The notes under the pieces: model-generated
What the model saw: the letters and a program-made list of their open reading frames with translations, nothing else
Told to the model about the DNA's origin: nothing
Databases searched by the model: none
IMG/VR virus record: IMGVR_UViG_3300000115_000121
Span: 1 to 29,497 of that record
Direction: 5' to 3' (one strand)
DNA length: 29,497 nt
From: a virus
Translations under genes and position numbers: made by a program
In this document: piece by piece, positions 1 to 19,012 of the stretch
Layout: every line of letters starts with the position of its first letter
Position numbering within the stretch: position 1 is the stretch's first letter

Positions 1-2866
1 CCGCTGCTTGCTCAGGCTTCTTGAGGTTAGAATCTTCAGCAGGTTGGGTCATGTCCCTGCCCTTCCTAGCTTTTCTAGCTCTTTTTGCTCCTTTACTGTT
101 ACCACTATCGTCGTGAGCTCCGTCCTCTGACTTAAAGTTGGGATTACTACCTACACCGTCACCATCTGTTGTAAAGATGGTTTTTACATCATACTCACTA
201 TCATCAGAGATGTCTAGAACTCTAGATGAACCGTAGAATGCTTTTTTAATACCTCTGTCTGCGGCAAGCTGAGACAACGACGCATCATCAGCCCACCAGA
301 AGTCTGCAGTATTGCGTAGGTCTTGGTGAATCCAACCCATAGACCCAAACGTAGTGCTGTGAGCTGCTTGAACTTCTATATCGTTATAGGTAACATGAGG
401 ATCCCCATTTAAGTAATCCTCTTTGCTAAATTCACTTGGTGCTCTAAGCAGCTTATCGTGAGATACAGGCTCATTGACAACTCCTGGTCCTCCAGCAAAT
501 TGCCTGAATATTACCCCGTACTGACACTGAACGTGTGTAGCAGGGGATACATCTTCCCTATCCCTTAGCATAGTGAAGTCATGGAACTGGAATACAGGGT
601 TAGAGAAGTATCTCTTACTACTGTTTGTATTCCCTTTCCACTCACCTATAGTATCTACTGTACTGCCGTCAGTATGATCTAAGCCTCCGTACATATAGAA
701 TGCTTTGACGTACGGTCCTGATACTACAGCCTCTAGATTCTGCTCAGGAACTGCAGCTACTTTAGGCTGTGATGGTACTGCAAGACTTTGCCCAAGTATT
801 GTCTTGTCACTCTGATTACGCTTAGCGTAGTATACTTTGTAACCCTGTACGTTACCTAGTATCTCTCTAGGTATCTTCACATTACTGAGCCTGATACCCA
901 TAATGTTTATGGACTCTGAGACAACCATGCTCCCATCTGTCCCAAGATCACTAGCTGTATTTCTTTGACCTCCCTCAGGGTTATAGTTCCACTCTAAATA
1001 GTTTTCAAGGGGATCATTCCTACGTATCATAAATGACCTAGAGTCATTCGTGTTAGATGGCATTCTGTGATGCCTTACTGGTGTGTTTGCTAAACTATTA
1101 GCTGGGTCTATGAGAGCATTACCCTCATTAGACACATCTCCTATGAGGAAGTCTCTAGTGTTAGGATATCTCTCATTGATATTCTCCCAGTATCCTGTAG
1201 TTACATTTAGGTTAGCTAGTGCTTCAGATGTATCTACTATCTGGTATACTCTAAGACCAGGATTCTGCTGAACCATCTCACTTGGGTTAAACCCGTGAGC
1301 TTCTTGGTGATTCTCAGGACTGTAGAGAGATAGGAGATCTGTTTCCCCCATACTTCCACTAGTGTTAGTCTGCTGATTTGTAAAAGTCAGACCATTGATA
1401 GTGGTTCTCTCTACGCCTTCCCTGCCTGGGATGTGATATGCATAAGTCTCTGATCCATCGTTAAGTACAAATGATATGTAAAATGCATATACTTCCCCTC
1501 GTCTGTAAGTCTTGCGCTTGAAACTGTATGCAGGATCTTTATATCCTTTACGAGTAGTAAGTTGATTATCAACTGCAAACTCGTTTAGTATCTCTGCGTA
1601 GCTCCTATCTACACTGTCTACATCTGAGGTCCAGTTACCTCCAGATAGCTCCCACACTTTACTGTACTGCTGCGGTACTAAAGAATCGTAGGTCTGCAGC
1701 ATCTTAGCATACCCGTAGTTAAGTATGAAGGTGCTGTACAGCCTAGGGTCAAAGCTGTCTACTCTGTCTACTACAGTATCAATGCGTATGTTATGTGCAA
1801 ATGGCTGATAACCAATGTCTTTGTTAGACGTTACGTTAGCCATATACAGCCTATTGTCAAGCTGGTCTATTGACTCTGCAGCTATGTAGTCTACGTTGTC
1901 TACAACAATGTCTTCTACAGCTATACTCTGAGAGTCTTCTGTACCAGAGTATACTATGTCCAAGTCTATAGCCCCATTGAGAGGTACTTGGATAGGAGTT
2001 AGTTTGACTGCAGTCATTGCAGTCTTTTGCATCTTAATGACTACAGGCTGTATCAGCTCATAGTCTATACCGTCTAACCTGTTGATAGTCCAGCATATAG
2101 ACTTACTAGTAGGGGTACCACCTTCAGCCCCTATGAATGCGTTTGTGGGGAGTGTGTTCTCAGGCTTAGGAGCTATGTATACAGGGTTAGAGATAGTAAA
2201 GTAGTTAGTCTCTAAGCCCTCATAGTCAGCATAAGCTAGAGCTAAGTAGTATGCTGCAGACGGTAGAGCACCACCGTCAAGTATTTTAACTTCCTCAAAG
2301 TTACAGTGATTACCTATTCTTGGAATAAGCTGCAGTTTGTGATGAGTGTTGTTCTGATCATACAGCTCGTTAATCTGACCGCCGTTAAATCTAAACTGTA
2401 ACTGCTTAGTTACATTAATTACCCTAGGTGGGTTGTAGTTACTTGCATACTCAAAGCTTGGGTATATAGCCTCATACTCTACGAACCCATCAGTGAAGTA
2501 CACAAGTATCTCACTTGCTTGGTTCCTACGCTGAGTGCATACTATAGGATTGCTGAGCTGGAAGTTTAGCAGGTTATTCTCATACAGTATTACTGTGTCC
2601 TGATTCCTTGTATCCAGTATACGTATTTGATCTGTAAGTATCTCTCCGTCAACCTGTTGACCGAACATTACTATGCGGTCATCATCTAGTACTACTCTAC
2701 CTATTACCTTGAAATTAGCATTAGTAGGATACTCAGTAGTACCCCACTCATTGCTGATACTCCCCTTCTTGATATTGATGTTAGCGTTTAATGCATCACG
2801 CATTGTACCCTCAGGCTGATCTACCCGAGCAGTATCCTTGAACATACCTTTTCCTAACTTCTTCAT
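1..2866 (-). CDS. crAss-like stabilization/muzzle-type tail protein, 3' end cut by window
   Basis: The frame is open from an ATG at 2866 to the window edge, about 955 codons, with no stop, so the C-terminus is missing. The start overlaps the preceding ring-type gene as ATGA, which decides it. The protein begins MKKLGKGMFKDTARVDQPEG and continues with RDALNANINI, the N-terminal pattern I know from the large stabilization proteins of crAss-like phages. In the solved crAss-like tail this class forms the distal muzzle (family knowledge; the assignment is by recognition only). The body is beta-rich with aromatic and Asn/Asp-rich strands, no signal peptide and no membrane segment. Near the edge there is a short basic stretch (RARKARKGR) followed by acidic, disordered-looking sequence. 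Position directly after a ring protein fits a tail-tip role. Confidence 0.72.
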   Translation of the reverse strand, partial: MKKLGKGMFKDTARVDQPEGTMRDALNANINIKKGSISNEWGTTEYPTNANFKVIGRVVLDDDRIVMFGQQVDGEILTDQIRILDTRNQDTVILYENNLLNFQLSNPIVCTQRRNQASEILVYFTDGFVEYEAIYPSFEYASNYNPPRVINVTKQLQFRFNGGQINELYDQNNTHHKLQLIPRIGNHCNFEEVKILDGGALPSAAYYLALAYADYEGLETNYFTISNPVYIAPKPENTLPTNAFIGAEGGTPTSKSICWTINRLDGIDYELIQPVVIKMQKTAMTAVKLTPIQVPLNGAIDLDIVYSGTEDSQSIAVEDIVVDNVDYIAAESIDQLDNRLYMANVTSNKDIGYQPFAHNIRIDTVVDRVDSFDPRLYSTFILNYGYAKMLQTYDSLVPQQYSKVWELSGGNWTSDVDSVDRSYAEILNEFAVDNQLTTRKGYKDPAYSFKRKTYRRGEVYAFYISFVLNDGSETYAYHIPGREGVERTTINGLTFTNQQTNTSGSMGETDLLSLYSPENHQEAHGFNPSEMVQQNPGLRVYQIVDTSEALANLNVTTGYWENINERYPNTRDFLIGDVSNEGNALIDPANSLANTPVRHHRMPSNTNDSRSFMIRRNDPLENYLEWNYNPEGGQRNTASDLGTDGSMVVSESINIMGIRLSNVKIPREILGNVQGYKVYYAKRNQSDKTILGQSLAVPSQPKVAAVPEQNLEAVVSGPYVKAFYMYGGLDHTDGSTVDTIGEWKGNTNSSKRYFSNPVFQFHDFTMLRDREDVSPATHVQCQYGVIFRQFAGGPGVVNEPVSHDKLLRAPSEFSKEDYLNGDPHVTYNDIEVQAAHSTTFGSMGWIHQDLRNTADFWWADDASLSQLAADRGIKKAFYGSSRVLDISDDSEYDVKTIFTTDGDGVGSNPNFKSEDGAHDDSGNSKGAKRARKARKGRDMTQPAEDSNLKKPEQAA

Positions 2867-3852
2867 CTTCCATAGGTATTGTACCGACCTCTATATATGT
2901 CTTCTCTATCCCCAAGTTCATCAAACACATGGTCATGTCTGTTGATGTTCGGGATAAGTCTAACCCACTGATTCATAAAGCTCTCCATCCTGTCAATGTC
3001 TGGGAACACTGCAGCGTTACGAGCTTGAGTACAGTAGTACTTCCACTTGTTGTCAGCAAAGTCATACTGTATCCCATTCTTAGCAGAATCCACTGTACCC
3101 CCAAGAAGCATCTTCTTGTAGATGTACCAGAACATAGCTTCCTTAAAGCTTACATCGTCTGGAACTAGGGGGTAGCAGTCAGCATCTGTAGGCAAAGCTT
3201 TGTAGCTGATACATACAGTACCTGTAGGGAATGAAGTTTTGATATAGTCACTCTCAATGAAGTAGCAGCTTACATGGCTATCATGATGACAGTCAGGACA
3301 ATCAGACTCAGGGAAAGTATTAGTACAATACTTAAGTGGGATAAGATGATTACCTTCCTCCCCACCTACTAGTGTATTCTCAAGTACCACTATCCTAGAG
3401 TTTATATCTCTAAGTTGGTGGTCAGATGTTTTAGCTATCGAGTTATAGTCTTTAACATCTGCCTCAGTTAGGGTAGATGTATAAGTTCCATTAGTAGAAG
3501 CTATAATGTGATTAGAGATAGCTTCTCTGGCTTGCGTATATGTTATCACAAGCTTTGCTACTTCATCTTTTAACTCAGATATCTCTGACTCAATCTCTGC
3601 AGACTTTATGTGACCACTTGTAGCTACCTGTTGAGGGTAATACAAATCAGCAGGTAAAGCTGCTTTGTGGTTCTTAATCTCCACAGTGCAGACCTTAGTA
3701 ATTGTCTGAGCACTACTACCAATATGCTCCAATGCTTCTCCTATCCACTCAATAGAATCATGAAGCCAATCCCCATTTTGAGAGTGAGGATTGAGATCAC
3801 GCATGACTTTACGTACTATCTCCTTACTAGATATGGTTTTATATATCGCCAT
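2863..3852 (-). CDS. crAss-like ring-type tail protein, 329 aa
   Basis: The 329-aa protein has an N-terminal helix with EWIGEALEHIG (residues 35-45), a beta part (KAALPADLYY), a predicted coiled coil at about residues 84-165, and a C-terminal part with YPLVPDDVSFKEAMFWYIYK (227-246) and ESFMNQWVRLIPN near residue 290. I recognise these N- and C-terminal blocks from conserved structural proteins of crAss-like phages that form rings between portal and tail tip, comparable to tail tubular/adaptor proteins. The coiled coil between them looks like an insertion. It overlaps the upstream 160-aa gene by 14 bases and the downstream muzzle-like gene by ATGA, so the three are probably translated together. 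A Cys/His cluster (CPDCHHDSHVSC, about 185-196) might bind metal. Which ring (first to fourth) it is cannot be told here. Confidence 0.78.
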   Translation of the reverse strand: MAIYKTISSKEIVRKVMRDLNPHSQNGDWLHDSIEWIGEALEHIGSSAQTITKVCTVEIKNHKAALPADLYYPQQVATSGHIKSAEIESEISELKDEVAKLVITYTQAREAISNHIIASTNGTYTSTLTEADVKDYNSIAKTSDHQLRDINSRIVVLENTLVGGEEGNHLIPLKYCTNTFPESDCPDCHHDSHVSCYFIESDYIKTSFPTGTVCISYKALPTDADCYPLVPDDVSFKEAMFWYIYKKMLLGGTVDSAKNGIQYDFADNKWKYYCTQARNAAVFPDIDRMESFMNQWVRLIPNINRHDHVFDELGDREDIYRGRYNTYGR

Positions 3853-4321
3853 GCTTTCTAAATCTTAAGTATGCCAGATCATCGTCTTTGAGTAGTTTGG
3901 TCAGCTTCTCTTTATTACCTTTTATACCTCGTGTAGGTGTAAACCTATACGCACTCTTGTTAGAAATCTTACATCTAGACTTCTGCCAGTGATACTTACA
4001 GTACCAAGGATCAGTGTAGTATATGAACCACTTTTCACCTTGACCTGTAGATACGTCAAAGAGCTCCTTGCCTTTTGCTAGAAGCTCTTGCTTGTACCTA
4101 TTGCTCTCCCACCAGTCTATTGTAGGCTTGCTGGGATTACGTTCTATCCTACGTATTGATAAGGTAGATAGGTTACTACCCATACTAAATTCCCCACCGT
4201 CAAGAATATGCTCGACTATCAGCATGTTGAATTCCTCACAGATTTGTCTAAACAGACGAGTCTCTATGGGGTCTTCAACATGCTTTACATAGTCTTTATG
4301 TATATCCTTGATAGTAAGCAT
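3839..4321 (-). CDS. conserved crAss-like protein of unknown function, 160 aa
   Basis: I recognise this 160-aa protein as one of the conserved, uncharacterised proteins of the crAss-like virion gene block. The most telling stretch is at about residues 46-80: GSNLSTLSIRRIERNP, then DWWESNRYKQELL. A Trp/Tyr/Cys-rich stretch (WFIYYTDPWYCKYHW) and a basic C-terminus (RGIKGNKEKLTKLL) follow. There is no signal peptide or membrane segment. Its start overlaps the stop of the basic 503-aa gene by one base (TAATG), and its own stop lies 14 bases inside the ring-type gene, which supports the call of a real, co-translated gene. The function is unknown; a role in tail assembly or DNA/RNA contact is only a guess from position and basic charge. 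Confidence 0.75.
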   Translation of the reverse strand: MLTIKDIHKDYVKHVEDPIETRLFRQICEEFNMLIVEHILDGGEFSMGSNLSTLSIRRIERNPSKPTIDWWESNRYKQELLAKGKELFDVSTGQGEKWFIYYTDPWYCKYHWQKSRCKISNKSAYRFTPTRGIKGNKEKLTKLLKDDDLAYLRFRKHGDI

Positions 4322-5832
4322 TAGCGCTTCTTACCCATTTTAGCTTTACTCCTACGGTCTTTAAGAGCTTTCGTCATAGGTTCAGTCTTGTTACCGTCTT
4401 TGTCCATATCAAGGTAGTCAGGCTTAGCACCTCCTGCCCTGTACTTCATCATGCCCTTCTTACCCTTTTTCTTACCGCCTCTTCTCATAGGCTTAGGAGC
4501 ATTAGGATCAGGTTGTTGAGTTGCATCTGCTGCGGGTGCTGGTGCTGTTACACCTCCTGCGCCCGCATCTCCTCCTCCTCCTGGAGGCGGTACAGCTCCT
4601 TTAGCTGCATCAAGTGCGGTCTGAGCTCCAGGAACTCCACCCATGTAACTTCCTACAGTAACTGCAGTGCTACCAGTAGCATCAGCTATCTTACCAAACT
4701 TGGTTTCTTGACCTGCAATTGCATCTACACCTTTACCAAGCAGTTGAGCACCTGCGCCAAGTGCTTGCACAGTCGCACCAGCTACAGCTTTTCTGCGAGG
4801 TCCTCCCATCTTAGCTTTACTTCTAGCAGCTTTTAGCTCAGACTTTTTATTTGCTTTAATATCTGCTAGTCTATTCTTTCTATCAGCTTTAGCTCCTCTC
4901 TCCTCGTTTCTGTCAAACTGTTTACTATCTCTTTTATCAGCTCTACTTTGCTGATTAGCAGCTCTTTCAGACTCTCTTCCTTTAGCTTTAGTGAATCTAT
5001 CTACAGCTCTGTCAGACTTAGCTGTATTGCCTTTCACATTAGCTTTAGCCATCTTACCAGCCGCTCTCTGGACTTTACGGCTTTCACCAGTGTTAGCTTC
5101 TTTAGCTGCAGCTTTTTTAGATCTAGCAGATTGTCTACGATCTTTCATAGCAGCTCTACCTGTCTGCCTGCTCTCCTTCTTAGTAGGAGACTTAGTAGCA
5201 GGAGTTTTGGTAGAAGTCATCTTAGTCTGAAGAGTAGGCTTAGTCTTACTTTGAGAAGCCATAGCTGTAGCAGCTGACTTACCTATACTAGCTACTTTTG
5301 CAGTCTCACCTTTCTTCTCAGGACCATAGGTAGTTCTACGATTCGTAGGACCTTTACCGTAAGCTCTGTTAATCTTGTTCTGAGCATCATTGTACTCGTT
5401 AGAGCCTTTAGTAGCACTATTACGAGCTTTGATGTAAGAGTCAAGATTAGCGTCTTTTTTCTTAGCAGCACTGTAAGGATTAGACGTAGTTTTAGCTTTA
5501 GCTTTACTCTTACCGTTCGAGCTAGAGTTGTTAGATGAAGAAACTGTGTTTCTTACTTTATCTGCAGCATTAGCTGCTTTTTCTTGGGCACTCTGAGCTG
5601 CTCCTCGAGCAGGGCTAATAGCGGTATTTATTGACTCCCGGACATAATCCGCTCCATCTCGAATTTTATCAATAAAGGATTTATCTTTCTCGACAGGATC
5701 ACCATCACCAGCTTTTCTCCGTTTAGGCTTTGGACCTTTCGCTCCACCAAACTTGAGCTCTTTGTTAGGCTCCATGTAGTCACCCCCACGCATCTTCTTC
5801 ATGCCGTAGGAGGCTTTTTTTCTTTTATTCAT
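4321..5832 (-). CDS. very basic Lys/Arg/Ala-rich protein, possible packaged cargo
   Basis: The 503-aa protein is dominated by Lys, Arg, Ala, Ser and Gly in low-complexity order, with many short KAK, RRK and SKAKMG segments. A less charged, Gly/Ala-rich and potentially amphipathic part lies at about residues 345-415. A Pro/Gly-rich linker (PPPGGGGDAGAGG) follows, then the ending DYLDMDKDGNKTEPM. That ending has an EF-hand-like DxDxDG pattern, and I have seen similar tails in other marine phage proteins. No enzyme motif is visible. Its position just before conserved tail genes, its charge and its disorder fit a DNA-associated or ejected internal protein, as in the cargo proteins of crAss-like capsids; that is inference. 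The leader has no Shine-Dalgarno sequence. It could instead be a scaffold or assembly factor. Confidence 0.7.
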   Translation of the reverse strand: MNKRKKASYGMKKMRGGDYMEPNKELKFGGAKGPKPKRRKAGDGDPVEKDKSFIDKIRDGADYVRESINTAISPARGAAQSAQEKAANAADKVRNTVSSSNNSSSNGKSKAKAKTTSNPYSAAKKKDANLDSYIKARNSATKGSNEYNDAQNKINRAYGKGPTNRRTTYGPEKKGETAKVASIGKSAATAMASQSKTKPTLQTKMTSTKTPATKSPTKKESRQTGRAAMKDRRQSARSKKAAAKEANTGESRKVQRAAGKMAKANVKGNTAKSDRAVDRFTKAKGRESERAANQQSRADKRDSKQFDRNEERGAKADRKNRLADIKANKKSELKAARSKAKMGGPRRKAVAGATVQALGAGAQLLGKGVDAIAGQETKFGKIADATGSTAVTVGSYMGGVPGAQTALDAAKGAVPPPGGGGDAGAGGVTAPAPAADATQQPDPNAPKPMRRGGKKKGKKGMMKYRAGGAKPDYLDMDKDGNKTEPMTKALKDRRSKAKMGKKR

Positions 5833-5850
5833 GATTGTAATTATTAGGGG

Positions 5851-5872
5851 GTGACTAGGGTTAGCTAGTCAC
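5851..5872. other. perfect 8-bp inverted repeat at a gene junction
   Basis: GTGACTAG at 5851-5858 and CTAGTCAC at 5865-5872 form a perfect 8-bp stem with a 6-base loop. The stem covers the stop codon of the 115-aa gene. On the transcribed minus strand it is followed by CCCCCTAATAATT, not a U-run, so it is not a classical terminator in that direction. On the plus strand it is followed by TATTTGTTTT. It may be an RNA 3'-end stabiliser, an mRNA processing site or a terminator for antisense transcription. Confidence 0.45.
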
Positions 5873-6208
5873 TATTTGTTTTACCCCCACAAAGAAGCCA
5901 GCAGTAAGCTCAGTTTTGCTAGGGATGTCTGACACTTTAATGTCCTTGAGTTCAAGCTTGTGCTCTTCCTCAAGAACCTTCTCAAGTTCTGTATTGAACT
6001 TGTTGACCTCCTTCTCAGGTACCTCATCTTCGCCGTGCTTCTTCTTAAGCTTCTCAAGCATGTCGTTGCGGAGCTTATCAAAAGGCTTGATGATCTCTTC
6101 GAGAGATTGAATATTAAGCGCAACATTATAGTTGTTACGCATTCCGAGATTCTTGTCTGCGTTCTCACCGAGAGTACGGTAGACATTAATACATTCAGAA
6201 AGTTTCAT
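5861..6208 (-). CDS. small helical phage protein, 115 aa, similar in layout to the 137-aa gene
   Basis: The 115-aa, highly charged and mostly helical protein begins MKLSECINVYRTLGENADKN and holds a probable coiled coil (KLKKKHGEDEVPEKEVNKFN and on). Its layout matches the 137-aa gene at 18575-18988. Both have an early Y..L segment and a central NI..L..I..P block, followed by a long Glu/Lys helix. Both end with an L..I....(L/I)P turn and a short hydrophobic tail. They may be paralogues. The function is unknown; small helical proteins of this kind in phage structural blocks can be chaperones or minor virion parts. The leader (ACCAAACACT before ATG) has no Shine-Dalgarno sequence. Confidence 0.7.
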   Translation of the reverse strand: MKLSECINVYRTLGENADKNLGMRNNYNVALNIQSLEEIIKPFDKLRNDMLEKLKKKHGEDEVPEKEVNKFNTELEKVLEEEHKLELKDIKVSDIPSKTELTAGFFVGVKQIVTS

Positions 6209-6226
6209 AGTGTTTGGTTTTTATGA

Positions 6227-6565
6227 TTAGTGTGCTTCCAGTGTCCAGTCAGCAGCTGTGAGTCCCCACATGCCGTCAGCTTGAGCCAAAGCGTAACGAG
6301 TACAAAGCTCTTGGAACCTACCTATAGTGTTAGTTTCTACGAGAGTTACTGTACCTTCAAAGGTGTCCATATCAGCTTCAGATACTGAGTGGTGCTGATG
6401 ATGAACAGGGTTACCATTATCGTTATTAAGGAAGGTGACTTCAATTCTGACTGACCCGTCTGATTGATCCCCAACCTGAGCGGTGTAGATTTCTCCTTTA
6501 ATAACGCCAGTCTCCTGTGTTACAGCGTTTATCGTAACGCTGGAGTTAGAATGAAAATGATGCAT
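6227..6565 (-). CDS. small His-rich hypothetical protein, 112 aa
   Basis: The 112-aa protein is predicted mostly beta, with a helical end (FQELCTRYALAQ) and the C-terminus GLTAADWTLEAH. It has a His-rich start (MHHFHSNSS) and a second His cluster (HHQHHS, about residues 55-60), which could bind metal. No signal peptide, membrane segment or known motif is visible. It sits in a run of three small genes between the giant fibre and the basic protein, with gaps of under 30 bases on both sides, so it is probably in the same transcript. The leader is A/T-rich (ACAAAAACAATTATT before ATG) without a Shine-Dalgarno sequence. I do not recognise the family; a fibre-assembly or minor virion role is suggested only by neighbourhood. 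Confidence 0.68.
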   Translation of the reverse strand: MHHFHSNSSVTINAVTQETGVIKGEIYTAQVGDQSDGSVRIEVTFLNNDNGNPVHHQHHSVSEADMDTFEGTVTLVETNTIGRFQELCTRYALAQADGMWGLTAADWTLEAH

Positions 6566-6592
6566 AATAATTGTTTTTGTAAATATAAGTTA

Positions 6593-6868
6593 TTAAGGAT
6601 TTTGCTGGTTATGCCAGTCTTCTTCCCTCTGCAATTCTTCTTCCACAGTGTCTGCAAGGATTCTGTTTTCGGGGTTCATGTAAAACCCATCTTCCTCAAG
6701 AGCGTCGACTGCAGTAGCTAGTTCTTCTTCTGTGTCGTATTCATTGATAACGTAATCGTGAGAACACTCTATGTGCTCATTGACTTCGTGTTTCAAGTAT
6801 AGGTATCCTTTTACGCTAGATACGTTAGTTATCAATACCCAAGGCTTTGTTATAATATGATGACTCAT
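6593..6868 (-). CDS. small acidic hypothetical protein, 91 aa
   Basis: The 91-aa protein starts with a beta-type stretch ([20 protein letters not shown]). It then becomes strongly acidic and helical ([19 protein letters not shown] and [16 protein letters not shown]). There is no membrane segment and no motif I recognise. The start overlaps the stop of the giant 1932-aa fibre gene as ATGA, so it is probably translated by coupling to that fibre. Genes in this position often encode fibre chaperones or assembly factors, and the small size and acidity would fit that, but nothing in the sequence proves it. Its stop is 27 bases before the next start. Confidence 0.66.
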
Positions 6869-9800
6869 GAGAATGTTACTGCACTAATTACCCAACCAAG
6901 TCCTCCATCAATGCTGTATGCTTGAGAGGTAGTAGTGAAGATGTCTCTACTCAAGGTTAGTTCGTTATCGTTATCTACACTATTTACTTTGGCATATGTG
7001 CCTGCTGTAGTATTTTCTACTACGTCTCCGATACTGACTGATGCAGTAAATGTAGCCCCAGAATCAACCAGTTTATTTGTTGTAGTGCTTGTATTAGTAC
7101 CTGATGTCCTATTAGCGTTAGGAGTAGGGGCGACCATCTTTAAGTATCCTCCATACGTATCTTCCCCGTCGTAGTCGTGTGTAGTAGTTGTAGCAGCTAG
7201 GGAGAATGCTTTAGATCCAAAGGACATATTTACACCTGTGGCAGTATTTGCATTAGCACTCCACCCTATCCACATTTTAGATACAGATGAATACGTCGAT
7301 CGACCAAACGTGTTAATGTTAGTTCCAGCCAATGCATTTAGGTTCCAGCTGCTAAAATCTCGGTTAAGGGCACAGTTCTCAAATGCGTAGCTTAAACTAG
7401 TGATTCTACTCATATCCCATCCAGACAAATCGGGATTGTTTCTATAACCCAATCCAGCCCCAGTAACTGCTGCCGAGTGCCACATGTCATTGGCTTTGTT
7501 TTCTACAGTTACAGTCAATCTGTCTACACTAATAGCTGTTATTTTACTTGCTCCTCTTTCATACCCTCCTGTTCTGAAAGACAAGTCTGCACCTACCGTC
7601 CAATTATCTGGGACAGCTGATCCGAAGGTTAATTGATTTGAAGACCCTGTATATCCTGTACAACCGATACGGGATTCACCTGGAAGAAGACTTGTACCCC
7701 CATTTCTCATGAAGAAAGCCATACTACCTGCAATACTACTTGTATTCCAGTTTTCAAGTCCAAGGTTCTCCCCAGCTCCGCGGGTATTGAAAGCACTATA
7801 AATGTTTACCAAATTTGTTGTGTTCCACCCAGACAAATCGCATAAATACATAGAATTGGTGCTAACGAACATGCCAGAAATACTAGTGGCAGCAAGACCT
7901 ACTGACCAAGCACTAACTGAATTTGCTAAGTTTTGACTTGATATACTACCCATGCTACTAAACATGTTCTTGAAGGTTATTACTGAAGAAACATCCCACC
8001 CGCTCAAGTCTTGGTCAAATGTTAGTATTTTTCCAGATCTGCTTTGAAAAAAATCGCTAAAGGTCGTCACGCTTGACGTATCCCACTGGCCTATTGCAGG
8101 GTTGTAATTTTGTGCACCTCTGAACATATAAGACATGTCAGTAACGTTGCTGGTATCCCAACTATTTAGATCCATATTAGGCTGAGGACTATTTGTAAAA
8201 TTAGAGTAAATATCACCAAAAAACATGCCATACATGTTTGTCACAGCACTTACATCCCAACTTCCTATAGGTTGGTCAAAGTTTCCAGCAAAACTAAACA
8301 TCTCTGACATATCAGTTACTAGACTAGTGTCCCAGCCTGAAATGTCTTGATTAAAGCAATGTGCACCTTCAAACATAGCTTGCATGCTAGTTACGTTACT
8401 AGTATCCCAGCATCCAATGTCTCTATTGAACTTGTGAGCATTATTAAACATCTCTAGCATAGTCGTAACATTACTAGTATACCAGCTGCTTACATCTCCG
8501 TTAAACCTAGACGCACTTTTAAATGTATACCTCATATCGGTAACATTAATAGTGTTAATTTTCTCCACTCCGTTACCAGTAAAGTGACTAGCGCCGTCAA
8601 AAGTTCTAAACAGTGACGTAATCCTATCAGAGATCTCTTCCAACCCACTAACATCTGTATTTACATGTCGGGGCACAACGTTCTTAAAAGTACTTATATC
8701 AGCTCCACCTCTTGCTTTTTGAACTCCCCCAGCTATAAAGAATGGTATGTACTCACCTATATTAGTGCGGGTATAGTTTGTAAATAAGTCACTTATAGTA
8801 GTGATTGTTGCCGATAATTTATACTTTCCAAAACTGCTAAATCCAGTGGTGCCGCCCCAAGCTCTCCAGAATAGCGTGTCAAACTGCCCAATTACATACG
8901 GAGTGTTTTTTGTCAGTTGATCAAAGCTTTCTCCTATATCAAATCTTGTTATACTTTCAGCCGCGTTATCTGCTAAGGTAATCGCTTTATTTATATCTTG
9001 AAGTGGTTCTTTCCCTTCTTTTATTGGTAGTCTATCTCCGCCGAAACTGTTAAGGCCAAGGGATCTTAGAATAGTGCAATCAAAATTAACATTTGGGAGA
9101 GCACCACTCCACGATGGAAGGTTCGTAATGTTAAACCCATTCATGGCTAACCTCCGAATCTGTATATAGCTACCTAACTTTAGAGTATCTATGTTGGATA
9201 CATACCCACTAAGAAATGGATCATCGCATTCTACTGGCTCATACGGGGTAAACCATTCGTCTAAGTCTTGGTTTGCCGCAAGTCCTGTGAGGTTTTTAAA
9301 CGGTGATATCAATATTCTTTCGAATGCACCACTGTTGCCTCTTGTAATATTTGGCGGTATAAGCATTCTTCCTTTAAACTCAGCTAAGCTTGTAGCGTCG
9401 CTAAATGTTTTTCCACTATATCTTACCTGATTACCTAATCTTATTTCTGTTACCTGAGTATTAGAAACAAAGTTTAATCCAGCACAAGGTCCAGTTATAG
9501 TTACGGTATATGTACCTGCTGTTGCATACGTATGAGTCCATATAGCATCTCCGTCCAAAACTTCTGTTATGGTTTCCCCATCTAGATTACCTATAACCCC
9601 AACTCCGCTTTGCGAAATTCCGCGAATTGAGTGAGCAAAAGAGGTCGAAGATGAATCACCCCAGTCAACAGTACCGAGCAAATACTTATTGAGAAGGTTG
9701 GTTCCGTCACTAAGCTTTATAGTAAACGTCTCATTAGCTGTGGTAGTGGTAATCACAAACTTGGTTGGGATAACAGCAACAGCAAGGCTGCACCCAACAC

Positions 9801-12663
9801 CTTCTATGTTTTTGTTTGTATTAAGCTGGTTAAACAATTCATCTTTAAATGAAGATGTAGTGTTCTCTATGGTTTGGCTCCAATACTCACCTGAAACTCC
9901 GCTAGGGAAAACGTCAGCTGGATTACTAACACCGTCGATTGGTGTAACCGTAGCCATATCTATAGCGTACCAACCTTCTGGGTTACCGTTGGCTTCTATT
10001 TTAGATGCATCCGCATTGAACTTATTGCTAAAGTACAGCCTTCGTACCCCCACGCCAGTATACTCAGACTGGCTAAAGCCATCGCCATCAAATCCTCTAG
10101 TGTAGTAGCTTTCAACGTGAGAAACCGTACCTGTAACGTCTTGAGTTACTGATCCTGTCTTAGCACTAGCTTGAGTGTTAAACTTACCAGTGTATATCGG
10201 ATCTCCATTTACCTGAAGCTCACCATTTACATTCAGTATGCCGTTATCAAACTCACCATACACAAGTGGAGTGGTAGTGTTGCTGTTAGCTATATAGAGT
10301 TTGTTGCTTTCTGTTGTAAGTTGCCCACCTGCGCTTCTCCCAATAAGCACATTAGAAGCTCCCGTAGTCAGAACTTTTCCAGCATTAGTTCCAAGAGCTG
10401 TGTTGTCGTCTCCTTCAACATAGCTCAACGCTTCGGCTCCAATACCTACGTTACTGCTTCCAGTTGCTGCAGCTGAGAATCCACCTGAAGCGTTCCCCAC
10501 AAACGTGCTGTTACCCCCAGCCATCATGCCGCCTCTCTGACCTATACCTACATTATTAGTTCCAGTAGCATTCATAAGTGCTCTGAACCCTACACCAACT
10601 GCACTGTAACCGTTCAATCCACCGCCTCCAGCTGCAAATCCTATCAGTACTGAAGTTCTAGTCCCTGCAGTATTAGCTGCAAGAGCACCGCTTCCGATAA
10701 TAACAGATTCGAAATATGCTCCAGTACCTCCAGCAGCATTTGTTCCTATAACTACATTATTATTAGCCGAACCTGTTCCAGAACCAACGTTGTAGCCCAT
10801 GTACACAGAGTAACTTGTGTTGCTACCCGCAAATCCAGAACCTATACGTACACTACTAGCGGCGCCCGCGCCAGTAAATATTCTAGCATCTCCAGTAACA
10901 CTAAGAGCCCAAGAGTTAGTTCCTGCTCCACTTACACTTAAGTCTCCATAAATAATTGCTCTAGGGTCAGAGAAATCCCCCCAAATAAGCGGGGTAGTGG
11001 TGTTTGAGTTTGATATGTAGAGTTTGTTAGAGCCTGTTTCGTTGTATCCAGCTTGATATCCTAAGAATATATTGCTGTTGCCTATCGACGTCCCTCCAGC
11101 ACTTTTTCCTATAATTACATTATTAGAAGCTTCTGCTGTAGTTGTAGATCCGCTTAAAGCTCCGTGACCAATTATTACGTTATTAGTAAGAGGACCATCT
11201 GCGTCATATGCAGCTCTGTAACCAATAAGTACATTATTGTCCGTCTGCCCTTGGGCCAGTTGAGCTGCATTTGTTCCTACAATTACGTTCTGGTCAAATA
11301 CTTCAGTTGCAAAGTTTTGGGTTTGAGATCCTGCGTTATGTCCGACAATGGTGTTAGAAGCACCCATTCTAGTTGGTTGCTCACCTATTTGAATGTTGCC
11401 TGAACCAGTTGCGTTTTGTCCTGCAAAACCTCCTATAAAGATCCCCCTCTGCACAGCTTGTGCCGCTGGGCCTATAGCAATACCATAGGTTGATCCTGTG
11501 ACCTGCGCACCTGAACCAATGGCTACTCCGTTAGCTTGTGTTACACTTGACCCATAGCCTACTGATACTGAAGTTGCTGCAGCAGATGCTGCATGTCCAA
11601 GAGTTACAGATCTAATCCCTGTGAATGATGCGTCATCTCCAATTACAATAGAAGAGAAGTCGTCTATTGTAGCATTTCTAGCAGTTCTATTACCAATGGC
11701 GATTCCTGGGCCCCCAGTAGTGTTTCCAGCTGCTTCGTGTCCAATAAAAGTTTTATACCCTGATCCTGTGAAAGCAGCTCCTGCTCCTTTACCAACCATT
11801 ACAGAGAAATCTCCTGCTGCTAACTCTCCCGCCTCTTTTCCTATAAAGGTGTTACCTCCTCCAGTATTTGTCCTACCAGCTCCATTTCCAATAAAGGTGT
11901 TGTAAGACTGAGTAGTAATGGCGTTTCCAGTCGAACTTCCTATAGCGATGTTCCCGATTCCAGTGCTTAAATTATAAAGAGCGTTTGATTCAAGTGCTAC
12001 GTTTCCACTAGCTGTAGTTATACTGCCAGAAGCAATGTTTCTTCCTATGAATACATTTCTCCCAGTTGGAGATGAATTTTCTGCTATGTTGGTTCCGATA
12101 GAAACAGACCCTTCCGCCCCAGATTTAACGCGTTTACCTACTGAAACAGTGGCTGAGCTAACAGTAGCAAATGCTTGATAACCAATGGCTATTCCTGCAG
12201 TAGCATTAAATGAAGTACTAATCCTCAATCCTGTAGCAGGATCTGCGAAGAGAATATCTCCTGTCTCTACCTTAATTCCAGACTGAGACTCTATTGTATA
12301 GTATGTAAAACTATCGTACTCAACTCTGAGTTTGTTAGCTACAGTAAGGTCGTAGCCAGAATTACTAGCTGTTCCAATACCTACATTACCTGCTTGGTAG
12401 GTGATACCGTTAGTGTCTTCATCCCATAGACCTTTTACTTCTGACCAGTTAGCTGCATCAGTCCACGTACCTCCTGTATAGATAAACGGGGTATCGGTAT
12501 CTTTCATGATAGCCAGATACCCTTCTGTGTGCAGATTAGAGTTCAGTGCATCTCTAGCAGCTGCATCAGCAAAAATACCTACACCCTTGACCTGCAAATC
12601 ATTCAGATCAACTGATGGTGCGTCAGGGTTATTGTTTAGCAGTATATCAGGAAACTTAGGCAT
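6865..12663 (-). CDS. giant tail fibre/adhesin with hexapeptide-like, PKD-like and BspA-like repeats
   Basis: This 1932-aa virion fibre is a likely receptor-binding protein. Domains in order: an N-terminal part (1-95) with the fibre pattern AARDAL...[13 protein letters not shown] and [11 protein letters not shown]; two blocks of IG-containing repeats (about 165-560 and 600-810; e.g. [17 protein letters not shown]), like the beta-roll head of trimeric adhesins; a mixed region (810-990); a PKD-like domain (about 990-1056, VDWGDSS and [15 protein letters not shown]); and a region of BspA-type leucine-rich repeats (DUF285; about 1345-1780) with a 25-residue unit of the form WDTSNVTxMxxMF. A short beta-type C-terminus follows. 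No S74 self-cleaving chaperone end is seen. The start lies one base after the 519-aa fibre gene's stop; the end overlaps the 91-aa gene by ATGA. The repeat types are recognised by motif only. Confidence 0.85.
7700..8620 (-). repeat. tandem BspA-like (DUF285) 25-residue repeats
   Basis: Within the 1932-aa fibre the units [48 protein letters not shown] and [16 protein letters not shown] recur about every 75 bases, sometimes with insertions. The pattern W-D-[TV]-S-x-V-T-x-M-x-x-M-F followed by F-N-x-D is the signature of BspA-type leucine-rich repeats known from surface proteins of Bacteroidota, mollicutes and some protists. A further unit ([16 protein letters not shown]) lies farther left near 7390-7440. 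The DNA copies are diverged, so the repeat is visible mainly in protein. Confidence 0.85.
10240..12170 (-). repeat. hexapeptide-like IG repeats in two modules with a shared end motif
   Basis: The encoded protein repeats motifs such as [33 protein letters not shown] and [10 protein letters not shown] every 12-25 residues. The region splits into two modules. Each ends with nearly the same block: [20 protein letters not shown] (about 10969-11036) and [20 protein letters not shown] (about 10248-10313), followed by a similar GDLSVSG/GELQVNG strand. This points to an internal duplication of a fibre-shaft unit. The fold is likely a trimeric beta-roll by analogy with trimeric autotransporter heads. 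Confidence 0.75.
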
Positions 12664-12664
12664 A

Positions 12665-14224
12665 TCAGAATTCTATATACACTTGCACGTTTTCTGCAAA
12701 TGCTTGAGTGAAGGGTGAACGATAAACTCTCATCGTGAGAGCCTCACTGAATTTGTTGGTCAGATTGAATGTACCGAGATCATCAAATACAATGTCTGTA
12801 CCTGCGCTACCACCTTGCTTGAGAGCAGTAAGTGCGCCAAGTGCTGAATCATACATGATGTATGTGTACTTGGTGTTGTTGTTCATTGTAGCTTTAGCTG
12901 ACAATGTGTAGCTAGACTCATTATTTCTAACCTTGTAGTATCCTGCAGATACTGCATAGTTATCGATTACATTTTGCAAATCAGCATCACTTGATCCGCT
13001 TGTGTAAGCTCCTGTGTCTGAAGTAAACAGTACTGGCTGTCCGAACGTTATAGCTCCAGCAGTGTAAGTTGCTGGAGAGCTAGGGCTACCATCGTACATC
13101 TTAACAGAGTAAGTGTAAGATGCACCAGTCGTCGGCGCTGCATTGTCTGCGTGCGAGAATGCATGTGTTGGGTTAGTTGGAGTTTCAGTATCTATAACTC
13201 CTCCTCTAAGAAGCTCTACACTAGTAAGGTCTACAAGTGGGGAGTTACGGTTAGTAGTAAAGGATACACTAGAATTAAAGTTACCTATCTCCCTGAAGTA
13301 ATTCGTCTCATTGTCTGCGTCACTAGATCCTGCGGTACGTCCAGGAACAAAGCTGCTAACTGTAGGAGCAGCGTAACTAATCTGATTAATAGAGTCAGAA
13401 GCTGAGTCAGATGTCCCGAAGTCGTCAGTGACATTGAGTGTGTAGTTCAGTGTGTAGTTAGTAAACCCAGTAAGTGTAAGCGGGTCAGAGATAGGAGTAC
13501 CGCTAACAGCAGTAGCTTCTATGACTGTAGGTGTACCGTTAAGTGTACGAGTTACTGTAGCTGTAGTCCAACTAGCTGAGAATGTAGGAGTTATAGTAGC
13601 ATTCAAACTAGTAGCATTGTACTGGAATGAGTTAGGTGAAGCATTAATACTCAGCACTTGCTCAGCAAGTACATTCTCTATAAAGTCAACTATACCTATT
13701 CCTCCTGCAGGCGGGGTAAATGTACCTGTACCTGTAAGTCTACCGAATGACAAATTCCCAAGCTCAAACGGCATAGGGTCTGTTATAGTAGCACCACCAC
13801 CACCACCACCTGCCCCAGCACCACCAAATGCTACGAGGAACTCACTAATAACTCCGGGGATAGGAATTTTGAGTACACTAGATATTACTTGGGGATCTGT
13901 GCCTGGAGTTAAAGACAATCCACCACCTGCAGCTACGTACAAAGAATCACCTACAGATACACCAGCTAGGCCTGACACAGTTACTTCTGCGTATCCACCT
14001 ATTATGATGTCCCCATCATTACCAGCTCTGATTACTGTAGAGGTAACACCTATACAAGGCATCTTATTAGGGTCAGAAGAATCTGCAGCTCCAAACTGTA
14101 GAATACCATTTTCGTTATTGACTATGTACACAGGAGTACCAGCCATCATATCTGCGCCTGATAGGTTCTGTCCATATAACCTATTGGTTTCTAGTCTATT
14201 ACTTCTAAGATTAAACTTACCCAT
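12665..14224 (-). CDS. virion fibre/decoration protein with DUF2190-like N-terminus and Ig-like part
   Basis: The 519-aa protein has three parts. Residues 1-130 form a beta domain with [38 protein letters not shown] and [15 protein letters not shown]. This is the layout of DUF2190-type capsid/fibre domains, in which PVY, GDxLYV and G-rich turns are typical. A Gly-rich linker ([14 protein letters not shown], about 133-147) follows. The rest is Thr/Ser/Asn-rich beta sequence with Ig-like segments ([29 protein letters not shown]). The C-terminal part ends in [15 protein letters not shown]. It lies between the 143-aa small protein gene (22 bases) and the 1932-aa fibre (1 base), so it may connect that fibre to the virion. 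The function is inferred from domains and context. Confidence 0.78.
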
Positions 14225-14240
14225 TGCTTGCTATTTTAAA

Positions 14241-14254
14241 CAGGAGTTATCCTG
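14241..14254 (-). terminator. weak hairpin over a stop codon, possible terminator
   Basis: On the minus strand CAGGA-TAAC-TCCTG forms a 5-bp stem that includes the TAA stop of the 143-aa gene and is followed by TTTAAAAT. The stem is short and the U-run is broken, so it would give at most partial termination before the 519-aa fibre gene. Confidence 0.28.
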
Positions 14255-14678
14255 CGTGAATAAGCATATACTCTATGACTGTATCAGCTGTATCAGCAGT
14301 CAGGTATATGTCCGAGTTTGCGGAGTAAGGTAATACAACTGACTGACCTCCAGCAAGATGTCCGAGAGTAGCATCAGGAGTACCATCAGTATTACCGTCA
14401 AGCTTAATAGCTACAGAGTCAGTAAAGACTGTAGTACCTACGTTACTTGAGAAGTTCTTTATATAGATGTATGCAAGCTGAGATTCACCATTGTTAGTGT
14501 AATCACTTGCATCAATTAGCAATTGATCAGACGCTGGTATCTTAATCCTTGACAAACCTGTAGTCAAATCAAGTCCTGCAGTACCGTCTGAAGTCACAAT
14601 AAATGACGACGATATGTTGAACGGATCTGAGGTTATGTTGTTTGAAGAAATTACATTCTTCACTGTAGTAGTAGGCAT
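14247..14678 (-). CDS. small beta-rich virion-type protein, 143 aa
   Basis: The 143-aa protein is predicted to be a beta sandwich: NNITSDPFNISSSFIVTSDG, AYIYIKNFSS, a variable loop, then LAGGQSVVLPYSANSDIYL and a VIEYMLIHAG end. The pattern (Y-I-K-N, then L-x-x-G-x-x-x-x-x-P, then D-I, then V-x-E-Y) recurs in the 141-aa protein at 18150-18575, so the two look like paralogues. Proteins with this outline are common as minor structural or fibre-base proteins in marine phages, but I cannot name a family. There is no membrane segment. The start is two bases after the membrane/coiled-coil gene's stop, and it is followed by a fibre gene, which suggests a virion role. Confidence 0.7.
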   Translation of the reverse strand: MPTTTVKNVISSNNITSDPFNISSSFIVTSDGTAGLDLTTGLSRIKIPASDQLLIDASDYTNNGESQLAYIYIKNFSSNVGTTVFTDSVAIKLDGNTDGTPDATLGHLAGGQSVVLPYSANSDIYLTADTADTVIEYMLIHAG

Positions 14679-14680
14679 GA

Positions 14681-14896
14681 TTACGTATCTATTTGTTTAC
14701 GAGCTAGAAGGAGTTTAATCTCAGCTATGTCTGAAGCTAGTTGCTTTAGTATAGTGTTATTCTCATCATCTTTTAACTCTAGTGTTTTGACTCTACTTTT
14801 CAATGAAGCATAGTCATTCTGATGCTTTATCCAAGTACCTATGAGTGCCCCCGCAACCATTAAAAACTCAAAGTGTGTAATATTATCTGGAATCAT
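14681..14896 (-). CDS. small membrane/coiled-coil protein, 71 aa
   Basis: Starting at the second Met (MIPDNITHFEF) gives 71 residues and an exact ATGA overlap with the preceding gene, the usual arrangement in this operon; an ATG six bases upstream (14902) is the alternative. The protein has one predicted membrane segment (FEFLMVAGALIGTWI, about 9-24) and a coiled coil (KSRVKTLELKDDENNTILKQ and on) ending in EIKLLLARKQIDT. The topology matches the 80-aa protein at 17486-17728, and both share a G..xGTW motif in the membrane part. Small proteins like this can be holin partners, inner-membrane spanins or tail-associated membrane proteins. No endolysin is next to it, so its role is open. Confidence 0.68.
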   Translation of the reverse strand: MIPDNITHFEFLMVAGALIGTWIKHQNDYASLKSRVKTLELKDDENNTILKQLASDIAEIKLLLARKQIDT

Positions 14897-15282
14897 GAGC
14901 ATCTACACTTCCATTTACGAAGCGCTTTATTAATTCTTGAGTCAGGATCTCTTTGACCCTCTTTTCCTGTTTTCTTTTTCTTCATCCCACACATGCGTGA
15001 GCAGAAAGACTTCTTCCTACTCCCACCTTCAGGCTGCGGAGCTTGAAGGTTAGAGCCAGGATTCTCACGCTCATAAGACTTACGACCTCTTTCGTTCAGT
15101 CCTCCACTAGGATTCTTCCCAGATTTACGAGTCCATGCCCCAGTCCTAGCTTGAGATCTTTTAATGTTCTCTTCTGTAGGTGCTCCTTTGTCACCTTTAC
15201 TGCGCATCTGTTCTCCTGAACCTCTTGCGATTCTTTTACGCTTAGCATGTATGTTTGCCCACAGGCCTGGTTTCTTAGCCAT
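14893..15282 (-). CDS. basic small phage protein of the MAKKPGLWANIHAKR / SFCxRMxGM type
   Basis: The real start is most likely the ATG at 15282, giving 129 aa beginning MAKKPGLWANIHAKRKRIAR. A longer reading from 15363 would run 77 bases into the ring gene without need, while 15282 lies 4 bases after its stop. I recognise this protein type from many marine phages: a basic N-terminus with GAPTEENIKRSQ, then GGLNERGRKSYERENPGSNL, then KKSFCSRMCGMKKK and an ending DPDSRINKALRKWKC (related to what is annotated as DUF6321; name from memory). It is rich in Lys/Arg/Gly and probably disordered. The function is unknown; conservation next to structural genes suggests a virion or DNA-linked role. Four Cys (two in SFCSRMC, two in CRC) are present. 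Confidence 0.8.
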   Translation of the reverse strand: MAKKPGLWANIHAKRKRIARGSGEQMRSKGDKGAPTEENIKRSQARTGAWTRKSGKNPSGGLNERGRKSYERENPGSNLQAPQPEGGSRKKSFCSRMCGMKKKKTGKEGQRDPDSRINKALRKWKCRCS

Positions 15283-15286
15283 TGAT

Positions 15287-15964
15287 TTACTGTATAGGAG
15301 TTTTGTCTTGCTGTTTATCGTTCTCTGTGTCAGGGAATGAACCTGCCAGCATCCTAAGTTCACCTGCTATTATACCCTGGTTTATCTGAGCTACCATATC
15401 CGCGGGTAGTGGGTACGGAGATTGGGGATCATAACAAGGACCATCATTACAGGTATTAAAGTTAAATACCTCTTCAGGGTCCTCGAATACTCCCCTAACA
15501 TTTATAGCTTCTAAACCTTTAGGTCTATACACGTAAATATACTCATCAATTACGTAATATTTAGTATTACCTTTTGTGTATTTATCGTACTCCAAGTATT
15601 CTACCTCATAAGGCTCTACTCTTGGGATAGTACCTGTGCCATCAGGTTTACCTATGAAAGTAAATGCATCTTTAAAGTTGAAGCGTATCGTGCGAGGAAG
15701 TTTATCTACTGTCCTGTATACTACACAAGTAGGAGGTAGGTCACAGCACTTAGAAGCATCTACCTGCTTGATCTTCAGACATCCAAGGTCTTGCTCTATT
15801 GTTTTTGATACATACCCATTACGGTTGTAATCCCTGCGAATAAACATCGCACGGTAATGCTTGATGTTGAACTTTATCTGACTAAGAGATATGTTCTCAT
15901 CATTACTACTCCGTCCCCCGCGTACCAGGTTTAGTAGGTTGTATGCTATTTCATCCAGCGTCAT
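15287..15964 (-). CDS. crAss-like ring/tail adaptor protein, 225 aa
   Basis: The 225-aa protein starts MTLDEIAYNLLNLVRGGRSS, followed by ISLSQIKFNIKHYRAMFIRR and DYNRNGYVSKTIEQDLGC. I recognise this N-terminal block as a hallmark of a ring-type tail protein of crAss-like phages, related in role to tail tubular/adaptor proteins that sit under the portal. The middle is beta-rich with paired Cys (CCDLPPTC), and near the C-terminus comes PLPADMVAQINQGIIAGELR, the helix that ends this family. Length is in the usual range for such proteins. The start overlaps the acidic 97-aa gene by 14 bases. The assignment to a ring is by family recognition; which ring is not resolved. Confidence 0.82.
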   Translation of the reverse strand: MTLDEIAYNLLNLVRGGRSSNDENISLSQIKFNIKHYRAMFIRRDYNRNGYVSKTIEQDLGCLKIKQVDASKCCDLPPTCVVYRTVDKLPRTIRFNFKDAFTFIGKPDGTGTIPRVEPYEVEYLEYDKYTKGNTKYYVIDEYIYVYRPKGLEAINVRGVFEDPEEVFNFNTCNDGPCYDPQSPYPLPADMVAQINQGIIAGELRMLAGSFPDTENDKQQDKTPIQ

Positions 15965-16244
15965 CTAGCCTTGTTTTAATCTTCACGATTTCAGAGCACT
16001 TCTCGTACTCTTCTGCATCTTCGAAGTATTGTATCATATCATCTGCAACCATCATGAAAGTATCTGGGACACTAGGATCGAAGGGAAGAAAGATCATATC
16101 CTCAGCTTCATCAAGGAGTTCCTGCACAGATAGTTCACCTGTGATTACCTTGTAAGCATTGCGGTATGCTTCATCCAATATCTCTATCTCTTCTTCCAAA
16201 GAGGTTACGAGATCTTCGTCTTCTGTATCGTCAAATTCTAACAT
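15951..16244 (-). CDS. small acidic helical protein, 97 aa
   Basis: I choose the ATG at 16244, giving MLEFDDTEDEDLVTSLEEEI and a 14-base overlap with the metallophosphoesterase gene. An upstream ATG at 16391 would force a 161-base overlap, and its extra residues look unlike protein. The protein is strongly acidic and helical, with a central FLPFDPSVPDTFMMVADDMI and a C-terminal helix EYEKCSEIVKIKTRLDDAG. The short helices and the conserved-looking YF..AEEYEKCSEI end resemble small acidic proteins I associate with crAss-like phages. Its function is unknown; the acidity would suit binding to basic partners. It is followed at once by the ring protein, so co-translation is likely. Confidence 0.7.
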   Translation of the reverse strand: MLEFDDTEDEDLVTSLEEEIEILDEAYRNAYKVITGELSVQELLDEAEDMIFLPFDPSVPDTFMMVADDMIQYFEDAEEYEKCSEIVKIKTRLDDAG

Positions 16245-17364
16245 TTGCTTGTAGATATCCTTCAAGTCCAGTTTGCTTATTCCATATATATGCTTGTCCT
16301 GCTCGTTTAGCTTCGTACCCCATCTGCTTGTGCCAGTCATCGTTAGGACAAATAGATGGTATGAACCTGACTTTAATACCTCTGTATTCATTCACCATCT
16401 CTTTATGAAGGTGTCCGCAATGAACTTCTCTGTGAGAAGTATCAGCAAACATCTTCGGTTGCTCCGTCGCCATAATCAGAGGCATATCTGCAGGCTTCTC
16501 TTTGTCCCCATGGGTAAACATCAACATGTTCTTTCCATACTGATAGTACTTCCTACTTTCATATGTGTTGTCTACTTCCACGTTTTCATCTTCTCTGTAC
16601 CATCCTGATAGCACATCTCCTGCGTAGAACATACGCTCGAAGTCATGATTACCAGAGATGACAATTACATCTACAGGTGCTATTTCTTTCAGGTAGTCTA
16701 TTGCTTTAACCATCAAGAGCCAGTATCCTCTAAAGGTGTCTTTCCACCCAGCTGAATCCTCAGCAGGTGTACCCTTAGTTGTTGTTCTTCTCAGTCCTTC
16801 AGAGTTCATACCGTCATTACCTATCGGTAGTATGAACTTGTCTATCTCTAGACCTGCAGCTTTATGTACAAGCTCCTGCACTACGCTTATGTAATCGTCT
16901 TCAATTTGATCCAAAGATCTATTGTGCAACTTACCATAGTGTATATCAGGTAAGGATATCTCATAAGCAATAGGTTCTAAAACCTCCTTATAAGCCATTC
17001 TAGATACCTTAGGACCTATTGATGCTGCAAAGTCCTCTATCTCTTTCTTGATAGAGTGAACGCTTACAGACTCTCCCTTAGTAACTACAGAGAATCTCTG
17101 TTTACCTGATACTGTTTGCCAGAACTTAACGCTTGCTACGTCTTCGGACTTTATATCATTCTTATTCAAATACTGCTGGAACTCAGTAATCACGCTGTCA
17201 TTAGCGTTATCATTGACTTCCTCACGAGCTAGCTTTCTAGCTTCGTACAGTGCTGTCTCACACTCTTCTATAGGTGCTTCTAATCTTTCAGACAGAATAC
17301 TTGCGCTCTTCTTGAGATAACCAGGTCTTTCCCCGATAAAGTCCTTTATATCTTCAATAGTCAT
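16231..17364 (-). CDS. calcineurin-type metallophosphoesterase with N-terminal helical extension
   Basis: The 377-aa protein shows the full set of metal-binding motifs of calcineurin-like phosphoesterases. They are D140-x-H142 (LPDIHYGK), GND at 182-184, GNHD at 238-241, a lone His at about 285 (FTHGDKE) and GHLH at 317-320. Such enzymes use two metal ions to split phosphomono- or diesters; the substrate here cannot be read from the sequence. Residues 1-130 lie before the domain and are helical and charged, with a possible winged-helix-like start (IKDFIGERPGYLKKSASIL). The gene starts inside the stop of the 42-aa gene (ATGA) and overlaps the next gene by 14 bases. An enzyme inside a block of structural genes is unusual; it may act on DNA ends, RNA or nucleotides late in infection, or be carried in the virion. 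Confidence 0.88.
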   Translation of the reverse strand: MTIEDIKDFIGERPGYLKKSASILSERLEAPIEECETALYEARKLAREEVNDNANDSVITEFQQYLNKNDIKSEDVASVKFWQTVSGKQRFSVVTKGESVSVHSIKKEIEDFAASIGPKVSRMAYKEVLEPIAYEISLPDIHYGKLHNRSLDQIEDDYISVVQELVHKAAGLEIDKFILPIGNDGMNSEGLRRTTTKGTPAEDSAGWKDTFRGYWLLMVKAIDYLKEIAPVDVIVISGNHDFERMFYAGDVLSGWYREDENVEVDNTYESRKYYQYGKNMLMFTHGDKEKPADMPLIMATEQPKMFADTSHREVHCGHLHKEMVNEYRGIKVRFIPSICPNDDWHKQMGYEAKRAGQAYIWNKQTGLEGYLQANVRI

Positions 17365-17489
17365 CCGCTACAATTTTCACATTCCTCAGGATTATCTATG
17401 TTGCAGGTTATTTCACCGCTCTCTAGCTTCTCTTCTGTCTTCTTCAACCTATCTGGATTCAAGAAGCTGATGTCATCTTCTTCGCTCAT
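17361..17489 (-). CDS. 42-aa microprotein with a Cys-x-x-Cys end
   Basis: This short frame reads MSEEDDISFLNPDRLKKTEE, then KLESGEITCNIDNPEECENC and SG before TGA. It is 42 aa, acidic and probably helical at the start, with three Cys near the end (C29, C37, C40, the last two as CENC). Its start overlaps the upstream membrane-protein stop as ATGA (17489-17486), and its stop overlaps the metallophosphoesterase start as ATGA (17364-17361). Without it there would be a 121-base gap, which is long for this operon, so two exact couplings argue that it is real. I do not recognise it; a metal-binding or regulatory role is possible. Confidence 0.7.
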   Translation of the reverse strand: MSEEDDISFLNPDRLKKTEEKLESGEITCNIDNPEECENCSG

Positions 17490-18988: not shown

Positions 18989-19012
18989 GGTATATAGGTT
19001 TGTCGGTTTTTA

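Follow-up and report, generated by a model that had tools for sequence, protein, structure and literature searches.

An exchanged, probably receptor-binding DUF285 tip on the probable tail fibre of a crAss-like phage

A metagenomic phage record of 29.5 kb, whose whole stretch of 29,497 nt is hereafter called the window, encodes a protein that is probably the tail fibre of a crAss-like phage, composed of an anchor, a YadA-head-like shaft, a PKD-like spacer and a swapped-in DUF285 tip that would bind the receptor. The fibre ORF is a single uninterrupted frame of 1932 aa, read from position 12663 to 6865. The relevant features, all on the minus strand, are the following:

2..2866, minus: start of the next gene, probably the muzzle (full-length copy in the sibling contig L159)
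2863..3852, minus: crAss ring protein 1 (PF24228, E 2e-56)
6865..12663, minus: whole fibre gene, starting just past the upstream gene g519 (12665-14224) and overlapping the downstream gene g91 by 4 nt
6868..7323, minus: C-terminal domain, residues ~1781-1932, unclassified (one viral match)
7324..8637, minus: DUF285/BspA/PARCEL repeat array, residues ~1343-1780 (Pfam and NCBIfam profiles)
8554..9333, minus: linker, residues ~1111-1370, matching no family
9334..9708, minus: PKD-like domain (residues ~1001-1065, VDWGD...) and its flanks (sub-cut-off Pfam matches)
9709..12408, minus: shaft, residues ~86-985, with repeated YadA-head-like or tail-spike-like beta-roll motifs
12409..12496, minus: swap junction, from the alignments of contigs L007 and L006 to the window
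12424..12663, minus: N-terminal anchor, residues 1-~80, kept in sibling contigs; the sole part of its modelled fragment with pLDDT 63-85
15287..15964, minus: crAss ring protein 2 (PF25702, E 2.1e-43)

Results

Phage identity and gene neighbourhood

Judged from ring proteins 1 and 2, and weakly from the muzzle in L159, the phage is crAss-like (Crassvirales); the genes recognised in the 29.5-kb record do not include the terminase, portal and capsid genes of the order. L159 is 98.9% identical to window positions 3-4406, and its full-length copy of the next gene gave a weak match to crAss_MUZ_C (E 0.0041, below the cut-off). In crAss001, ring protein 2, ring protein 1 and the muzzle are gp40, gp43 and gp44, respectively (PMC10172136). 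Since the fibre gene lies between ring protein 2 and the ring protein 1/muzzle pair, in a crAss001-like order, it falls in the crAss tail module. Among sequenced phages, ring protein 2 has its relatives in Flavobacterium phages, Cellulophaga phages and gut crAss genomes, and from these relatives the host group is probably Bacteroidota, Flavobacteriia.

The crAss-like structural region of the window also includes, on the minus strand, a 2155-aa ORF (20559-27026) for which Pfam, PHROG and NCBIfam gave no match. A 342-aa ORF on the same strand (27552-28580) weakly matches a PHROG tail sheath (E 2e-4); the group to which the phage belongs has tails that are short and non-contractile.

Domain organisation of the fibre

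The anchor core (~50 residues) gave short, weak matches to minor tail and receptor-binding proteins (E 0.007-0.05). The shaft that follows is glycine/alanine-rich, repetitive and beta-roll-like in sequence. It matched the PHROG families phrog_6002 (virion structural, 8.7e-9) and phrog_4636 (tail spike, 1.6e-6) and, weakly, the Yersinia YadA head in the PDB (1p9h, E 0.097 only); the Pfam search returned no match for it. The PKD-like domain, searched as an isolated short fragment, matched PF00801 with E 0.0018 and 18.7 bits, under the cut-off of 23.5 bits, and PF18911 with E 0.0047. The profile of this region also led to a peptidase M14 chain (4xed, E 0.04, a weak match), which we take to be a PKD domain. 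The C-terminal domain had a single match in the search for other viral copies (45% identity over 68 aa, in L200).

AlphaFold2, run with eight sequences on fragments of the fibre, gave confident models of two parts only, the repeats and the core of the anchor. In the fold of residues 985-1932, confidence was confined to the repeats, with pLDDT ~55-95 over residues ~1344-1644; the model of the shaft was poor (pLDDT < 50). The DUF285 region has no PDB match, either by sequence or by fold. Against BFVD, the repeat model matched DUF285 proteins from phages and from giant viruses, among them an entry from a crAss-like virus (E 0.0016), and nearly all the significant named matches of the 985-1932 model were BspA/DUF285-type proteins.

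The repeats belong to the DUF285 family

Beyond doubt, the fibre repeats are members of the DUF285 (PF03382)/TIGR02167 family, as they passed both curated cut-offs. The match to PF03382 covers residues ~1343-1780 in 4 stretches, with 237.6 bits and E 2.2e-71 (cut-off 25 bits), and that to the NCBIfam "PARCEL repeat" profile TIGR02167 has 70 bits (cut-off 30). The DUF285 stretches lie at window positions 8305-8619, 8221-8343, 7939-8211, 7723-7887 and 7330-7437. A reading made from the sequence only had proposed at least six BspA-type units and a profile search for DUF285; the family assignment was borne out and the count was conservative, as a strict pattern finds nine good units between W1394 and W1749, besides degenerate ones, the array decaying towards the C-terminus. 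That reading had named neither the strand nor the PKD-like domain and the shaft. Among 10,000 shuffles of the repeat region, 9,999 contained 0 units and one contained 1 unit; the unit pattern is ad hoc and was devised after viewing the sequence, so the real test is given by the Pfam and curated profile scores.

The coding DNA of the repeats has no excess of dyad symmetry over a codon-shuffled null (sum 69, against a mean of 70.9 and sd of 2.9), and 807 of 1000 shuffled sequences reach the observed sum. PARCEL as a palindromic DNA element was thus rejected for these repeats. Base composition gave no clear foreign signature, with GC 0.389 and GC3 0.359 in the repeat region and GC 0.40-0.45 in the other fibre segments.

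The tip was exchanged on a conserved anchor

The anchor search found six siblings and the ring-2 search 80 loci. The anchor is conserved in the contigs L006-L011 and, on shorter proteins, also in L057, L060, L061, L062, L066 and L087; in L057, L060, L062 and L087 these proteins are just 157-162 aa long. Beyond the shared anchor lie distal parts of another type in L006-L008, and in L009-L011 GPT repeats of a collagen-like kind. Support is thus given to the "normal phage fibre N-terminus" of the sequence-only reading, residues 1-~80 being kept in sibling crAss-like contigs with other distal parts. In the collagen-like fibres of L009-L011, length varies among near-identical contigs (576 vs 588 aa).

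The DUF285 tip arrived by recombination at the border between anchor and shaft, and sister phages bear unrelated tips on the same anchor. L007 differs from window 12497-19665 by 7 mismatches in 7,169 nt (99.9% identity over 7.2 kb); past 12497, from codon 56 on, the similarity breaks off abruptly, and beyond ~codon 83 the two are unrelated. L006 retains the window's residues 56-83 and departs beyond ~codon 83, and its tip, like that of L008, is similar to the tip of L007. The sibling contigs that reveal the swap stop ~1 kb into the fibre, and the tips were compared over that part. Of 74 records that are crAss-like or share the anchor, 24 being ≥60 kb long, 0 had a DUF285 match, though the shorter records may miss the fibre. 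Taken together, the nearly identical flank, the unrelated tip of L007 and the lack of DUF285 in these relatives indicate a lineage-specific tip, recent relative to its flanks.

The closest long relative, L018 (ring-2 92% identical), has at positions 13468-20500 several mid-sized fibre-like ORFs, not one long fibre, and two of them have an anchor-like start (MAIKFGDTLENQNS... and MAIKLADVIENQNT...).

DUF285 in other phages and origin of the repeat module

In INPHARED, 112 phage records match the fibre protein (tblastn). None covers half of the fibre, and the uncultured phage LR756500 is the only one matching both shaft and repeats. The view that such repeats occur mainly in bacteria and protists does not hold, as these 112 records, giant viruses and the crAss-like BFVD entry match as well. 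The DUF285 genes of OBP, SXP01 and Kc263 adjoin virion-structural or baseplate genes, and that of Synechococcus phage ACG-2014f lies near tail-collar genes. Proteins combining YadA-head motifs with DUF285 motifs were sought by regex, and the scan returned 0, a count that is not evidence of absence because the window itself scores just 1 head motif. DUF285 ORFs also occur in L158 and other records named "Listeria phage LM 4-11-1 / 4-14-1", which are unverified, come from wastewater and may be contaminating contigs, not genomes of Listeria phages.

The best local matches to the repeats were found in the Flavobacteriaceae bin25 genome (135 bits), phage LR756500 (127), a Caldilineales genome (124), another Flavobacteriaceae (122) and a viral contig (121). 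The top identities in Flavobacteriaceae are 47-53% over ~150-200 residues and those in the listed INPHARED phages ~23-39% (tblastn), mostly over longer spans; a closer likeness to Flavobacteriaceae than to phages is thus suggestive only, since the aligned spans differ. In IMG/VR, identity to the closest DUF285 proteins is just 30-45%. DUF285 is present in 79 of 199 Flavobacteriaceae genomes, and the small bin25 genome (3.0 Mb) has a large expansion of it, with 169 matches to the repeat module of the window.

A tree built from DUF285 stretches, with 54 rows and 134 columns, mixes phages with Flavobacteriaceae and has no starred clade that includes the window, so it cannot give the donor; neither are the repeats grouped only with phages of unrelated hosts. 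The order PKD-like domain then DUF285 occurs in the Flavobacteriaceae proteins L095 and L097, with a similar order in L092 and in LR756500 (L135). In this 462-kb phage, at 4897-8951, a YadA-head-like fibre ORF is directly followed by a PKD+DUF285 ORF. A 403-aa ORF of the same record (12537-13745) is TnpB-like by eye.

The idea of a captured host adhesin stands in part. A module of bacterial-surface type was indeed brought to the distal fibre by tip exchange, its top cellular matches are Flavobacteriaceae, and the cultured relatives of the phage infect Flavobacteriia. With the mixed tree and the arrangement in LR756500, where a PKD+DUF285 ORF lies beside a YadA-head-like fibre, direct capture from the host is no more than plausible, and exchange between phages would likewise be a possible source. 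A stronger version, in which the module was taken directly from a Flavobacteriaceae host adhesin and binds the surface partner of that adhesin, phage and host proteins co-diversifying by exchange of repeat modules, is in our view distinctly unlikely.

Discussion

Proposed function and alternative explanations

The most likely role of this lineage-specific, swapped-in tip is receptor binding. In the mechanism that we propose, residues 1-~80, the conserved anchor, would dock the fibre to the tail. The YadA-head-like shaft, probably trimeric, would reach outward, and the PKD-like spacer would display the leucine-rich DUF285 array, presumably exposed on the virion surface, as an adhesive tip contacting the receptor. 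The tip was gained by recombination at the anchor/shaft border, and its module is of a type common in Flavobacteriaceae and also present in other phage tails.

The module could instead be an accessory adhesin that does not bind the entry receptor and keeps virions attached to surfaces, to matrix or to other organisms. DUF285/PARCEL proteins are described as diversifying bacterial surface proteins (PMC2996958), multiple fibres are frequent in phages, and several fibre-like genes occupy the locus in L018, a close relative. We consider this role unlikely, because the module takes the place of a tail-fibre tip at a tail-module locus, where host recognition usually resides, and no second receptor-binding tip was seen on the fibre protein. 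The more specific proposal that virions stick to mucus, algae or host-coated surfaces found no support in the analysis. A further reading, which we judge very improbable, makes the repeats a mere spacer or extension of the shaft and places binding in the last 150 residues: the stretch past the repeats is distinct and common to at least one other viral protein, and very long arrays occur in several phage and cell proteins, but the units vary and degenerate, forming no uniform rod, and in phage LR756500 the same module makes up nearly the whole of a 384-aa protein.

Since every contig is metagenomic and the onset of divergence is abrupt, the join itself might be artificial, the window contig or L007 being an assembly chimera. 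The single long frame, tightly spaced from its neighbours on either side, argues against it, as does the recurrence of the window's residues 56-83 in the independent contig L006. Moreover, the downstream side is found again in L159, up to window position 4406, a g115 homologue occupies the same locus in L018, and the L007 tip is like those of two other contigs. We therefore regard a chimera as highly improbable, and retain the swapped-in, receptor-binding tip as our preferred reading.

Comparison with known systems

The occurrence of DUF285 in phages is already known, and the fibre does not represent a new system but illustrates well a kind of module swapping that is already familiar. Somewhat new is the single chain that joins a crAss anchor, a YadA-head-like shaft, a PKD-like spacer and a DUF285 tip, with a clean contrast to sister phages. 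Such sisters, 99.9% identical beside the fibre and bearing unrelated tips, offer a natural comparison for the role of the DUF285 tip. Phages and flavobacteria both have many DUF285 arrays, few of whose ligands are known, and a phage tip that is small and expressible, and for which a host family is likely, would permit a direct binding test; otherwise, the fibre offers an instructive view of the ordinary mosaicism of crAss-like phage fibres.

DUF285/PARCEL proteins were described as diversifying bacterial surface proteins by Roske et al. in 2010 (PMC2996958). Like them, the fibre has tandem units of ~25 residues (WDTSxVTxMxxMF...FNQDIxx); unlike them, its array sits in a phage fibre and not in a secreted or lipoprotein ORF, and its DNA is without the palindromic coding described for PARCELs. 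The PKD+DUF285 proteins of Flavobacteriaceae share the domain order of the fibre and have neither phage anchor nor shaft.

In 2020, a PARCEL protein was reported in phage vB_VhaM_pir03 (ORF 200) and stated to be undescribed in phages before (PMC7765460). The fibre resembles the PARCEL/BspA ORFs of pir03, OBP, D3, LAh10, pEt-SU, ACG-2014f and the crAss-like virus ctWDt29 (BFVD), which bear DUF285 arrays, often beside tail or virion genes. It differs from them in having the array on one chain with an anchor of crAss-like type and a YadA-head-like shaft; in LR756500, fibre and array are two adjacent ORFs.

Fibres of crAss-like phages are also known to be diversified by DGR, with C-type lectin and Ig-like domains (PMC12386605). 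Neither a lectin domain nor a DGR was seen in the window. The fibre shares with those proteins a variable, adhesive C-terminal domain; in contrast to them, its tip is leucine-rich and its variation would come through replacement of the tip rather than through a DGR.
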